A stretch of DNA of 33,833 nt from the IMG/VR virus record IMGVR_UViG_3300030012_004195, positions 1-33,833 of that record, one strand, 5' to 3'. Under the pieces are notes generated by a model, which saw only the letters and a list, made by a program, of their open reading frames with translations, made no database searches and was not told the DNA's origin. The position numbers and the translations under genes are program-made. Within the stretch, counting starts at the first letter, position 1; each line of letters starts with the position of its first letter. This document shows positions 1,103-29,368 of the stretch, in pieces. The stretch is from a virus.

Positions 1103-1152
1103 AGGTGCGTTCCTTCAGCGACTGCTTACTTCCGCCCTTACGGGTGAACGTT
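1103..1152 (-). promoter_or_regulatory. Glutamine riboswitch (glnA / Downstream-peptide RNA) candidate
   Basis: Read on the minus strand, the element starts with CGTTCACCC, continues through GGGCGGAAGTA and ends with CTGAAGGAACGCACC. P1 is CGTTC (1146-1150) paired with GAACG (1109-1113); CCC-GTAA-GGG can form an internal hairpin; GGAAGTA facing CTGAAGG matches the loop-E-bearing core I remember for the glnA and Downstream-peptide classes, which bind L-glutamine. It lies between a TATAAATA box and a small peptide gene. The 3' GCACC and the 5' CACCC can each pair with GGGTG of the downstream ribosome binding site, suggesting translational control. The motif match is from memory, not from a covariance search. 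Confidence 0.8.
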
Positions 1153-8221: not shown

Positions 8222-8509
8222 ATGTTTATATCTCAATTAGATTCAGTTACCGCCGAGGGGAATAAGATATCCAGGATCTACTGTGGTAAGACCGAGAAGT
8301 TATCTGTATGGTTCGCCACCAATCTCTGGGCTACATATGATAGAGACCACGGAGAGAGACTGGTTGATATCGCCACATACGACGACTACGATACTTACGA
8401 GCAGTATAAGGCCAGAGGCGAGAAGATGAGCCGCCCGGACTACTGGTTGGTAGAGGACCACAGACGTCTATGTGTGGCTCATCCATCAGATATAGAGGCG
8501 AATAGTTAA
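8222..8509 (+). CDS. Hypothetical early-type phage protein
   Basis: 95 residues, acidic and soluble. N-terminal strands (MFISQLDSV, SRIYCGKTEKLSVWF) are followed by an Asp/Tyr-rich middle (TYDDYDTYEQYKARG) and a polar C-terminus. The strong promoter and GGGAG ribosome binding site directly upstream suggest high expression soon after infection. The codons use more G and C than neighbouring genes. No family recognised. Confidence 0.75.
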   Translation: MFISQLDSVTAEGNKISRIYCGKTEKLSVWFATNLWATYDRDHGERLVDIATYDDYDTYEQYKARGEKMSRPDYWLVEDHRRLCVAHPSDIEANS

Positions 8510-8562
8510 CGCCTCTCCACGGGCCTCAGAGGGACACAGACCAATATAGGGGTTTATATTGG
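8494..8562 (+). other. Two tandem hairpins after gene end
   Basis: AGAGGCG (8494-8500) pairs with CGCCTCT (8510-8516) with the stop codon TAA in the loop. CCAATATA (8541-8548) pairs with TATATTGG (8555-8562) around GGGGTT. Neither is followed by a T-run, so they are not standard terminators. They may protect the 3' end of the mRNA or act in an intergenic RNA. The rest of 8510-8705 is non-coding and T-rich. Confidence 0.45.
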
Positions 8563-8616
8563 CAAAATGCGCAGTGCCGGTAACAAGCCACTAGTACATC
8601 ACGTCTATATTTAGAT

Positions 8617-8694
8617 TCAGAACTTTTTTTCAGAAACCTTTATATAAAATTTTTTTTCCTGGAAATTTTTTCATCTCCAGACTTTTTTCAGAAA
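8617..8694 (+). repeat. Degenerate direct repeat with T-runs
   Basis: TCAGAAC-T7-CAGAAA at 8617-8636 recurs as CCAGAC-T6-CAGAAA at 8677-8694, with another T-run and CTGGA/TCCAG pairing between them. The block ends a few bases before the ATG at 8706, where no clear ribosome binding site exists. Its role is not known; the T-runs could terminate transcription or expose single-stranded mRNA for ribosome entry. Confidence 0.5.
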
Positions 8695-8705
8695 TATATA
8701 GTATT

Positions 8706-25548: not shown

Positions 25549-27762
25549 ATGCAACAATTTGTTGACACAAGAGATTTTTTGTCTCAGACTAAGTTCTACG
25601 AAGGCTATTCACGCTTTAAAGACGATGAAGGTAGATATGAATCTTGGGACGAGGCTGTTGATCGTGTTATTGAAATGCACGACAAAAACTATATGAATAA
25701 TAATAATGAATTATCCACTTACTTAGATGAAGCTCGTACGGCATATAAAGAACAACGTGTTCTTGGTGCACAGCGTGCTTTACAATTCGGTGGTGAACAA
25801 TTAATGAAACATCAAATGAGAATGTATAACTGTACTTCGTCATACGTTGATAGAGCAGCATTCTTTGGTGAAGTGTTTTATATATTACTATGTGGTGCAG
25901 GTGCAGGATTTTCTGTACAAAAGCATCATATCAAAAAGTTACCAAAAATTCAAAACAGAACTAAACAAGCGAAAGGTTACATAGTTGAAGATTCAATTGA
26001 AGGTTGGGCTTCAGCTTTAGACGTATTAATGTCTTCTTTTTTTGTTGGAGGAGGTAAATATCCAGAATATGAAGGAAGAAGAGTGTACTTCGATCTATCA
26101 CAAATAAGACCTAAAGGTGCTTTTATATCAGGTGGATTTAAAGCTCCAGGGCCAAATGGTCTACGTAGGTCTTTAGATAAAATAGAACACTTATTACAAG
26201 GTATTGTATTAGACTCAAAAGAGCCAATAGCGATTAAACCAATAAACGCATATGATATTACAATGCATGCAGCAGATGCTGTATTATCTGGTGGCGTTAG
26301 AAGATCAGCAACCATTTGTCTTTTTTCACCTGATGATGAAGAAATGATGAATGCAAAAACTGGCAATTGGTTTATGGATAATCCACAAAGAGGCAGGTCA
26401 AATAACTCTGCAGTTATTGTAAGAGATGAGACCACACCAGAACAGTTTGGCAAGATTATGGAATCTGTTAAACAGTTTGGCGAACCAGGGTTCGTCTTCG
26501 TTGAATCAAAAGAACATACTACAAATCCATGTGTTGAGATTGGTATGTATCCGCAGATCAATAAGAAGTCAGGTTGGCAAGGTTGCAACCTAACTGAAAT
26601 CAACGGAGGCAAATGCAATACCGAGGAAGACTTTTATAAAGCATGCAGAGCAGCGTCTATCCTCGGTACCCTACAAGCAGGGTACACAGACTTCAAGTTT
26701 TTAACTGATACATCAAAACTTATTTTTGATAGAGAAGCTTTACTTGGAGTTTCAATCACCGGATGGATGAACAATCCTGATATTCTTTTTAATGAAAAGA
26801 TACTTGAAAAAGGTGCTCAGATAGTTAAAGACGTAAATAGAGAAGTTGCTAGAATAATTGGAATTAATGCAGCTGCTAGAACTACATGCGTTAAGCCAAG
26901 TGGTAACGCTTCTGTGTTATTACAAACAGCATCTGGCATTCATGCTGAGCATTCGAATATGTATATTAGAAATGTACAAATGAATAAAGAATCAGAAATA
27001 ACTCAAGCAATTATGAAGACTAATCCTTACATGGTTGAAGAATCAGTTTGGTCTGCTGGTGGAACAGATGTTGTTGTTTCATTTCCAATAATGCCTAATA
27101 AAGGATCAATGTATAAAGATGACTTATTAGGTGTTAAGCATTTAGAGCTAGTGAAGAAAGCTCAAAAGCATTGGGTTGAAGCTGGTACTAATGAAGAACT
27201 TTGTGCTGATAAAGGTGTAAGACATAATGTATCAAATACAATTATTGTAGATGATTGGGATGAAGTTGAAAAATATGTTTTTGAAAATAGACATTCATTT
27301 GCTGGTATTTCATTCTTACCTATGACTGGAGATAAAGACTACAATCAAGCTCCAAATACTGCAGTTATTACTTCAAAAGAAATGGTAAAGAAGTATGGCG
27401 ATGCTGCCGTTTTTGCATCAGGTATGGTTGTTGACGCACTAAAATGTTATAATAACTTATGGGATGCATGCTCTACAGCAAAAGGATTTGGTGAAGACAT
27501 ATCATTAGAAACTTCAGAAAATGCATTAAAAAGAGATTGGATAAGAAGGTTTGGTAAGTTTGCTGATAACTATTTAAATTCAGATCAAGCGCTTGCTGAG
27601 CACTGTTTAAAAGATGCATATTTATTGCATAAATGGAATAAAATACAATCAACTTTAAAAACTGTCGACTGGAAAGAAGACATAACAGAAAAGAAGTATA
27701 CTGATGTTGATACACTCGCTGCAGCCGCCTGTGCAGGTGGCGCCTGTGAAATCGATTTCTAA
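25549..27762 (+). CDS. nrdJ: Class II (adenosylcobalamin-dependent) ribonucleotide reductase
   Basis: 737 residues, the normal length of the monomeric B12-dependent enzyme. C95 (RMYNCTSSYVDR) and C346 (WQGCNLTEIN) are the active-site redox pair; N326-P-C328-V-E330 holds the thiyl-radical cysteine and its partners; C728-x4-C733 at the end (CAGGACEIDF) is the swinging reductant pair. The order and spacing agree with the Lactobacillus leichmannii-type ribonucleoside triphosphate reductase. It makes deoxynucleotides for phage DNA without oxygen or NrdB, using host or environmental B12. It has its own promoter and leads a transcript with three overlapping small genes. Confidence 0.96.
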   Translation: MQQFVDTRDFLSQTKFYEGYSRFKDDEGRYESWDEAVDRVIEMHDKNYMNNNNELSTYLDEARTAYKEQRVLGAQRALQFGGEQLMKHQMRMYNCTSSYVDRAAFFGEVFYILLCGAGAGFSVQKHHIKKLPKIQNRTKQAKGYIVEDSIEGWASALDVLMSSFFVGGGKYPEYEGRRVYFDLSQIRPKGAFISGGFKAPGPNGLRRSLDKIEHLLQGIVLDSKEPIAIKPINAYDITMHAADAVLSGGVRRSATICLFSPDDEEMMNAKTGNWFMDNPQRGRSNNSAVIVRDETTPEQFGKIMESVKQFGEPGFVFVESKEHTTNPCVEIGMYPQINKKSGWQGCNLTEINGGKCNTEEDFYKACRAASILGTLQAGYTDFKFLTDTSKLIFDREALLGVSITGWMNNPDILFNEKILEKGAQIVKDVNREVARIIGINAAARTTCVKPSGNASVLLQTASGIHAEHSNMYIRNVQMNKESEITQAIMKTNPYMVEESVWSAGGTDVVVSFPIMPNKGSMYKDDLLGVKHLELVKKAQKHWVEAGTNEELCADKGVRHNVSNTIIVDDWDEVEKYVFENRHSFAGISFLPMTGDKDYNQAPNTAVITSKEMVKKYGDAAVFASGMVVDALKCYNNLWDACSTAKGFGEDISLETSENALKRDWIRRFGKFADNYLNSDQALAEHCLKDAYLLHKWNKIQSTLKTVDWKEDITEKKYTDVDTLAAAACAGGACEIDF

Positions 27763-27919: not shown

Positions 27920-28016
27920 TGAGGTATCTTACGTAGCATCTTATAAAGAACCAAAGTATTGTCCTATTTGTAATAGTAAAATTGAAGCAGAAGAAGTCGA
28001 AGATGTGGATATATAA
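27885..28016 (+). CDS. Small zinc-ribbon protein
   Basis: 43 residues from TTG 27885, with GGGAGC before it. KDYQIECEECDEVSYVASYK then EPKYCPICNSKI holds C-x2-C and C-x2-C, a zinc ribbon, followed by an acidic tail (EAEEVEDVDI). It overlaps the DUF1289 gene by 35 bases and the GIY-YIG-like gene by 14. Likely binds nucleic acid or protein. Confidence 0.7.
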   Translation: MKDYQIECEECDEVSYVASYKEPKYCPICNSKIEAEEVEDVDI

Positions 28017-28404
28017 TGATGTAATTTTTGAAGACACACCAGAGGAATATCAAGGCTTTGTATACCAACTTACCGAAATTCATACCAACAAAAAATATAT
28101 TGGAAAGAAGAACTTCTGGAAACCTAAAGTTCTTCCCATCAATAAAACACGTAAAAGACGTGTACGAACACGTATTGAATCAGATTGGAAGGACTACTAC
28201 GGCTCATCCGCTGAAGTACGCCAACTCGTTGAACAACATGGAAAAGAAAGATTTAAACGTGAAATATTAAAACTCTGTAGAACAAAAGGCGAAATGTCTT
28301 ATTATGAAGCTAAGCTTCAGTTCGATCACAATGTATTGTTTAGAGATGATTACTACAACAACTTTATAGGTTGTAGAATTCATGCAAAACATTTAACAAG
28401 TTAA
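28003..28404 (+). CDS. GIY-YIG-like endonuclease (Seg-like)
   Basis: 133 residues from ATG 28003 (MWIYNDVIFEDTPEE). The fold-defining strands are GFVYQLTEIHTNKKYIGKKN, a VYxLT ... YIGKK version of GIY-YIG, followed by SDWKDYYGSSAEVRQLVEQH, GKERFKREILKL, a catalytic-site glutamate helix (SYYEAKLQFDHN) and a terminal NNFIGCRIH. Related T4-like phage proteins are usually called Seg-like or putative homing endonucleases. It is free-standing, not in an intron. It may nick DNA or process other phages; unproven. Confidence 0.78.
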   Translation: MWIYNDVIFEDTPEEYQGFVYQLTEIHTNKKYIGKKNFWKPKVLPINKTRKRRVRTRIESDWKDYYGSSAEVRQLVEQHGKERFKREILKLCRTKGEMSYYEAKLQFDHNVLFRDDYYNNFIGCRIHAKHLTS

Positions 28405-28901: not shown

Positions 28902-28930
28902 TTTACAAAGGCAAAAAACTAGTGTATAAT
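28902..28930 (+). promoter_or_regulatory. Sigma70-like promoter of the structured RNA/leader
   Basis: TTTACA (28902-28907), 17 bp ending AGTG, TATAAT (28925-28930), followed by a TTAAAAAGGGAGTA leader identical in style to 10877-10902. Downstream is a two-codon frame (ATGACATAG) and then a GC-rich non-coding stretch. Confidence 0.88.
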
Positions 28931-28957
28931 ATTATTATAAAATTAAAAAGGGAGTAT

Positions 28958-29158
28958 AAAAAATGACATAGCGAAAGAAACCGACAAGGCGTCTGAAGGA
29001 GAAGTTGCAAATAGGCAGAAGCAGAAGGGCGTCGGGGTTTACAGGTGCGGAGCTACCCAGGGAACCAGAGTCGGAGTATAAAACGTTCCCCAACTCTACC
29101 AAGGGGCGGGCTCATCGGTCGGTAGAGTTGGATGGATTGATCGCCGCCCCACAGAATT
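28958..29158 (+). ncRNA. Candidate novel structured RNA with H-type pseudoknot
   Basis: This 200-base stretch has no convincing gene and is markedly richer in G and C than its surroundings. Stem A: CAACTCTACC (29091-29100) with GGTAGAGTTG (29121-29130), 10 bp. Stem B: GGGGCGG (29103-29109) with CCGCCCC (29144-29150), 7 bp, interleaved with A. Loops of 2, 11 and 13 bases suit an H-type pseudoknot. GGGAAC (29060-29065) pairs with GTTCCC (29085-29090). It starts right after a strong promoter and ends 25 bases before the next gene, so it is either a long structured leader (riboswitch) or a separate RNA. No known class is recognised. Confidence 0.72.
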
Positions 29159-29182
29159 TTAACTAATTTGGAGAGAAGGCAA

Positions 29183-29368
29183 ATGCCAAGTCCATCAGAA
29201 ATACAAGATATAGCACCACTATTCTTTCAACTCCTCTTCTTCGCAGTAGCTGGTGCTATTCTTGTAGGATCATTTGTAGCAATAATAAAACTAATGTACA
29301 GATTTTCAGTTGTAATTTTTTTAGCTGTTGTTGCTTTTTTCCTTTACAATTACGCAAATCTATGGTAA
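29183..29368 (+). CDS. Small two-span membrane protein
   Basis: 61 residues from ATG 29183 with GGAGAGAAGG upstream. Two spans at about 14-36 (FFQLLFFAVAGAILVGSFVA) and 42-58 (VVIFLAVVAFFLYNYA), separated by KLMYRF. A holin-like protein is possible. It is the first gene after the structured RNA, which could control it. A promoter for the next gene is embedded in its last codons. Confidence 0.72.
   Translation: MPSPSEIQDIAPLFFQLLFFAVAGAILVGSFVAIIKLMYRFSVVIFLAVVAFFLYNYANLW

Follow-up and report, generated by a model that had tools for sequence, protein, structure and literature searches.

The locus studied here raises the question of what a stretch of about 200 bases, much richer in G+C than the AT-rich phage DNA around it, is doing between a strong promoter and a small membrane-protein gene. 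The window, i.e., the whole stretch of DNA that was analyzed (33,833 nucleotides; positions 1-33,833 of the IMG/VR record IMGVR_UViG_3300030012_004195), belongs to a T4-like marine phage whose gp32 is 58% identical to that of phage C48C1 and 57% identical to that of Methylophilales phage Melnitz. The first-pass annotation of this window had postulated an undescribed pseudoknotted RNA that follows a canonical promoter and a two-codon GGGAG-ATG-ACA-TAG frame and ends just before the gene of a two-span membrane protein, and every feature that it described is present. The promoter (TTTACA-17-TATAAT; 28902-28930, + strand) is of the sigma70 type, that is, early-type, and near-consensus with 11 of 12 matches. 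It is found at the equivalent place in the homologues, and the distant homologue L159 has TTGACA/TATAGT-like elements. The structured RNA, of about 190 bases, spans 28950-29151 on the + strand and begins with the Shine-Dalgarno-like GGGAG (28950-28954) and the mini-ORF ATG ACA TAG (28963-28971). Positions 28965-29164 have a G+C fraction of 0.535, whereas the window averages 0.345 (sd 0.049 for 200-base tiles); the highest-GC tile of the whole window falls within the RNA region. The conserved RNA ends at 29150, and the gene encoding the 61-aa membrane protein (29183-29368, + strand) is a downstream neighbour that forms no part of it. No intrinsic terminator follows the RNA, either in the window or in the homologous locus L014. 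There is also an exact 11-nt repeat, GGAGTATAAAA, at 28951-28961 and 29073-29083, common to the Shine-Dalgarno leader and a conserved linker, which is not retained in L159.

The fold comprises, from 5' to 3', the mini-ORF, a three-way junction (P1/P2/P4), a single-stranded linker, and an H-type pseudoknot, all on the + strand. P1, formed by CCGAC (28981-28985) and GTCGG (29070-29074), closes the junction of P2 (28988-28994 with 29027-29033), which carries a variable arm on top, and of P4/P5. P4 pairs GGTT (29036-29039) with AACC (29063-29066), and P5 pairs GGT (29044-29046) with ACC (29055-29057), the latter being invariant and thus without covariation evidence. The linker AGTATAAAACGTTCC (29075-29089) is near-invariant in the alignments and reads AGUAUAAAACGU across the family. 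In pseudoknot stem 1 (PK1), 29090-29100 pairs perfectly with 29121-29131, and in stem 2 (PK2), 29103-29109 pairs with 29144-29150 over 7 bp. The two perfect interleaved helices and their H-type arrangement are as first described, except that the first helix has 11 bp rather than 10. Loop 3 (29132-29143) has an AUG(U/G)NNUGA-like sequence, and its length of 12-13 nt is kept in all copies; the other dimensions of the pseudoknot are 10-11 bp for stem 1, 1-2 nt for loop 1, and 7-8 bp for stem 2. Interleaved perfect helices of 10 and 7 bp whose loops have H-type lengths arise in only 2 of 20,000 dinucleotide shuffles, and the same arrangement was not found elsewhere in the window on either strand. 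The nested folding energy of the RNA is ordinary (z = 0.03), and the evidence for it therefore comes from the pseudoknot and from covariation. The three-way junction had been missed by the first-pass annotation, together with the conservation of the mini-ORF and an overlapping frame restricted to one clade, both described below.

Three further features of the fold were considered and discarded. A pairing between the Shine-Dalgarno region and the linker is not kept, on inspection of the sequences, in the clade that has the overlapping ORF; an AUG-NNN-UGA in loop 3, taken at first for another conserved mini-ORF, is broken in L003, L142/L148, and L114/L104; and the likeness of CGGGG..UACAGG to 23S rRNA was judged to be within chance by a rough, uncomputed estimate.

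When the frame left open after the TAG was used as the query, 16 IMG/VR loci were retrieved, and the set was enlarged by pattern searches with the conserved core and by a search with the downstream membrane protein. The covariance model R1 recovers all the collected homologues, plus the divergent L159 (E = 1e-21) and L153 (E = 1e-19), and relaxed patterns gave no further ones. The pattern CAGGGAACCAN{2,3}GTCGGA also matched unrelated contigs, none of which gave a match among those searched with the covariance model. The resulting covariation set contains 37 homologues from marine T4-like phage contigs, giving 36 distinct aligned rows.

In an alignment fitted to a model that holds all the tested helices except PK2, 98.2% of the base-pair cells of the 36 distinct sequences pair, two-sided changes occur at 21 of 37 base pairs, and the covariation score is 0.411, compared with 0.150 in shuffles. 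On three measures (paired fraction, count of double-change pairs, and covariation score), none of 500 shuffles came up to the real alignment; on a fourth, the number of further pair types, the alignment was not above the shuffles (253/500). The shuffles leave the relatedness of the sequences in, and this is addressed by two other controls: pairing falls to 34-54% once the partners are slid by 1-3 columns, and Fitch parsimony on a FastTree tree (leaving out L153, probably misassembled at its end) counts about 53 double changes that preserve pairing, while permuted partners give 3.4 on average and 18 at most. P1 occurs as CCGAC/GTCGG, CCACC/GGTGG, and CGGTC/GACCG, plus two variants with a single mismatch; P2 shows two-sided changes at 5 of 7 pairs; P4 changes from GGTT/AACC to GATT/AATC; and PK1 has two-sided changes at 9 of 11 pairs. 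When the strands were extracted separately, 15 distinct strand pairs were found for stem 1 and 9 for stem 2 (hand-aligned), all fully paired with G-U allowed; since the pseudoknot search itself demands pairing, what counts as independent is that so many different strand pairs occupy one and the same place. There are 80 G-U cells and only 4 A-C cells, which identifies the + strand as the RNA. Even L159, 53% identical to the window over the alignment, retains all the helices. The compensatory changes, which the first-pass annotation had proposed to look for across phage contigs and whose lack in both stems it had named as refuting, are thus found in both pseudoknot stems and exceed the controls, as expected for a structured RNA under selection. 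This result shows that a homologous RNA with a conserved fold, encoded on the + strand, is kept in many marine T4-like phage contigs.

The RNA matches no catalogued class. Infernal-type covariance-model searches of the window against Rfam 15 (4227 families) gave no match at either gathering or permissive thresholds, the best scores being far below gathering, and the L159 and L118 copies likewise gave no Rfam match, again with best scores far below gathering. Blastn of three different members against INPHARED yielded none for two of them and only chance short matches for the third, tblastn of the overlapping ORF remained at chance level, and exact-pattern searches of GTDB gave no match. To our knowledge, no family with such a fold has been described, and none was found in the part of the literature that was covered. 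The postulated undescribed RNA is therefore supported by the compensation in its two stems and by the absence of an Rfam family. The novelty is that of the family, the mechanism being a proposal; the covariation is unusually strong for both stems of a pseudoknot.

All 37 copies have a Shine-Dalgarno-like motif and an AUG that is followed, after 1-3 further codons, by a stop in frame. Most copies have ATG ACA TAG, and the variants are ATG TTG TAG (L122), ATG GAT TAC GGA TAG (L016, L017), ATG AGG CGA TAA (L159), and ATG CGG CGA TAA (L153). The AUG lies 8, 14, or 5 nt ahead of the core GCGA/GCTA, with no change of frame. The conservation of ATG ACA TAG itself may be plain sequence conservation, the variants, about four, being the test of this. 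In the window, the stop lies 9 nt upstream of P1, and, given known ribosome footprints, a terminating ribosome would abut the fold. This invariable start-stop mini-ORF offers a direct entry point for experiments on a family whose carriers are open-ocean phages that are hard to culture.

The genomic distribution of the RNA bears on whether it serves the gene behind it. Among 78 scorable loci of the membrane-protein gene, the RNA lies upstream in 30 and is absent in 48; an unrelated small ORF occupies the place in 36 of the latter, and nothing in 12. This small ORF (MQIQKQIKDIQFDNDGVSEAIVMASAAGWYVGK...; L060 and 35 similar loci) lies side by side with the RNA in L163, L156, and L148. In turn, the RNA precedes at least six unrelated neighbours, i.e., the membrane-protein gene, a ligase-like gene (L058), an MKLLF gene that itself adjoins a phrog_1221-like gene (L173), an MKILKAIKD gene (L163, L156, L148), an MDMDMF gene (L159), and a phrog_3704-type gene that begins about 250 nt downstream with no credible gene between (L014, L017, L026). 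Exactly one copy was found per contig in 18/18 contigs with a match, these contigs being genome fragments beyond which a further copy could lie. The RNA and an RNA-less membrane-protein gene lie at separate sites of the 81.6-kb contig of L014, and L015 combines a window-type neighbourhood with an RNA closest to those of L016/L017, as would result if a cassette delimited by the Shine-Dalgarno motif and the 3' end of the pseudoknot had recombined. This one-copy, position-hopping distribution suggests that what is kept is the RNA itself.

Two other elements of the window are worth describing at this point. The slot that holds the RNA in L014/L016/L017 is occupied in the window by a GC-rich ORF of 95 aa with an early-type promoter (8222-8509, + strand), which has no defence-family match. 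It is followed by a second conserved intergenic element (8515-8700, + strand), upstream of the phrog_3704-type gene, that contains a TATAGGGGTTTATATTGGC hairpin, GTAACA.GCCACTAGT, T-runs, and TATATAGTATTATG. This element aligns to L014, L017, and L026, and its L014 copy has no Rfam match.

The possession of its own promoter and its behaviour as a single movable unit indicate that this is most likely an RNA gene acting in trans, and the changing neighbours, the single copy per contig, and the three loci with no credible gene within about 250 nt favour the same conclusion. We propose, with a probability of about one half, that these sequences constitute an early-transcribed family of structured phage RNAs of about 190 nt that acts in trans, possibly by engaging the translation machinery. 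The RNA would be made early from its own promoter and would be its own gene product, acting early in infection. More tentatively, a ribosome would load on the mini-ORF and terminate against the fold without unwinding it, so that the RNA might capture ribosomes or release/recycling factors, or deplete a tRNA in a minigene-like manner; alternatively, the bound ribosome might stabilize the RNA while the fold binds another host factor. A site for ribosome loading that never varies and borders a rigid fold would fit either the translation machinery or a ribosome-mediated protection of the RNA, and the presence of the mini-ORF in all 37 copies makes the translation machinery the preferred, albeit unproven, target. 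It is unlikely, although worth stating, that we are dealing with a new class of phage RNA in which a host ribosome, loaded on the ORF of two to four codons, terminates against a pre-folded junction-pseudoknot, trapping or redirecting the translation machinery during host takeover. Several observations go against the proposal: a clade has an ORF of 80-85 codons open through the RNA, whose translation would sometimes unfold it; the RNA lacks an intrinsic terminator in the window and in L014; and outside L014/L016/L017 a start codon lies 19-32 nt after the pseudoknot, as a leader would show, although tight gene packing can explain the latter.

This proximity of the start codon makes a cis-acting leader, i.e., a riboswitch or a stability or translation element for the small gene behind, the main rival, although we consider it doubtful. 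The RNA lies directly behind the promoter in most contexts, and riboswitches are indeed in use among these phages: a glutamine riboswitch of the glnA type is found in the window (1104-1152, - strand), together with a permuted tmRNA of alphaproteobacterial type (2458-2778, + strand) with the tag ANDNFAPQEFAQAA, a combination already described in Melnitz and in Pelagibacter phage Mosig (PMC9004378). However, a leader should accompany a consistent gene or pathway, and the genes downstream are unrelated to each other, the membrane-protein gene does without the RNA in most of its loci, L014, L017, and L026 offer no credible gene for about 250 nt, and no Rfam riboswitch class matches. Therefore, of the functions suggested by the first-pass annotation, the trans-acting RNA is favoured and the riboswitch or leader is less likely, the decoy being a form of action in trans.

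A gene for a SegE-like GIY-YIG homing endonuclease (27982-28404, + strand) lies about 550 bases before the RNA in the window and was not seen near it in the other neighbourhood contexts compared. The ribonucleotide reductase gene (25549-27762, + strand) has its best match in Rhizobium phage RHph_I1_18 (61.5% identity) and not in the T4-like phages closest by gp32.

The mini-ORF could, by analogy, itself be the effector, its two to four codons acting through peptidyl-tRNA drop-off or ribosome occupancy while the fold would only stabilize the transcript. The toxicity of minigenes depends on the codon and on the host Pth level. The layout of a lambda bar-like minigene (Shine-Dalgarno, AUG, few codons, and stop) is found in every copy, with four codon variants, and a minigene is reported to tune translation in the axe-txe operon (PMC8708949). 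Nevertheless, the most conserved parts are the junction and the linker, not the codons, and we regard this explanation as distinctly improbable.

A promoter-driven structured transcript that primes replication, or an origin element, would agree with a movable, GC-rich unit within AT-rich DNA that has one copy per contig and its own promoter. This reading is very improbable: the RNA is missing from the 66-kb contig of L121 and, in covariance-model searches of the whole genomes, from HTVC008M, Melnitz, and C48C1, and an ORF open through it in one clade would be unexpected for such an element.

Whether the region encodes a protein has to be answered for two different frames. The frame after ATG-ACA-TAG is open to 29166 in the window, a point on which the first-pass annotation needs correcting; in close homologues, stops and frameshifts interrupt it, the DNA being conserved, and for this reason its reading as a protein was rejected. 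The second one is a near-leaderless frame (MEKE...) of 80-85 codons that spans the entire RNA in 18 of the 37 aligned sequences, all from one clade, and usually ends overlapping the start of the next gene. The indels in this clade sum to multiples of three, which suggests that the frame is kept open. These facts would fit an early protein of 80-85 aa whose gene has decayed to a pseudogene in the window, a reading that we consider scarcely credible. The pN/pS values of the frame, 0.77 and 0.80, and a codon position 3 no more variable than positions 1 and 2, give no sign of purifying selection at the amino-acid level; sub-clades differ in the frame in which the middle segment is read (AKATTKLCDGKVALG vs AISNRQGVVMEKLHLG); and the ORF has no match in Pfam or PHROG. 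All this indicates that the constraint on the sequence comes more from the RNA than from the protein. The frame is a 48-codon one with a stop inside the RNA in L142/L148, and the long version is absent outside the one clade, including the distant L159. Compensatory changes continue in the non-coding copies, L159 among them, and, with pN/pS near 0.8, this led us to reject the pseudogene. The first-pass annotation had named a conserved amino-acid frame as evidence against an RNA; a frame does exist in one clade, with its amino acids nearly unconstrained and its middle frame-shifted between sub-clades, which makes it a clean case of overprinting on a folded RNA.

Finally, an anti-defence decoy, or an RNA-binding sponge by which a nuclease or sensor of the host is titrated, would agree with the early-type promoter, the compact knotted fold, and the absence from some relatives that is common in accessory factors, but no defence-family match was found among the neighbouring proteins searched and the idea is highly improbable.

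The RNA family presented here can be compared with several known systems. An identity as a self-cleaving or self-splicing ribozyme (HDV-like, group I, or group II) was rejected, as no known ribozyme or intron model matches the RNA; the order of its strands recalls HDV, but its loop 3 is without a conserved catalytic-type C. ToxI, the RNA of type III toxin-antitoxin systems, is built of pseudoknots of about 35 nt repeated in tandem ahead of the ToxN gene. This identity was rejected too, since there are no tandem repeats here and the 61-aa membrane protein downstream has no defence-family match. The leader pseudoknot of T4 gene 32 is a short cis element of that gene. It is likewise an H-type pseudoknot in a transcript of a T4-like phage, whereas the pseudoknot described here lies 3' of a three-way junction, moves between loci, and is placed about 2.6 kb upstream of the gp32 homologue of the window. 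A short ORF combined with a pseudoknot and a relation to the ribosome also recalls tmRNA, which the same phage encodes; however, no tRNA-like domain was found in the RNA, and ARAGORN and Rfam find only the separate tmRNA gene (2458-2825).

Some GOLLD and ROOL RNAs occur in phages. They are structured RNAs with no assigned function, as is the RNA of this work, but they are far larger and multimeric (PMC12286853), while this one has about 190 nt and no Rfam match. The Weinberg-type orphan RNAs manA, wcaG, and PhotoRC-II also come from marine T4-like phages, are structured, and were discovered by comparing sequences (PMC2864571). Judging from their names, they are tied to particular genes, in contrast to an RNA that precedes unrelated genes, has its own promoter and mini-ORF, and does not match their covariance models. 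The minigenes of lambda bar type and of axe-txe (PMC8708949) resemble our RNA in having a Shine-Dalgarno, a start, and a stop within a few codons. A link to their toxicity would be by analogy, and, unlike them, the minigene of this family is fused to a conserved fold of 170 nt.
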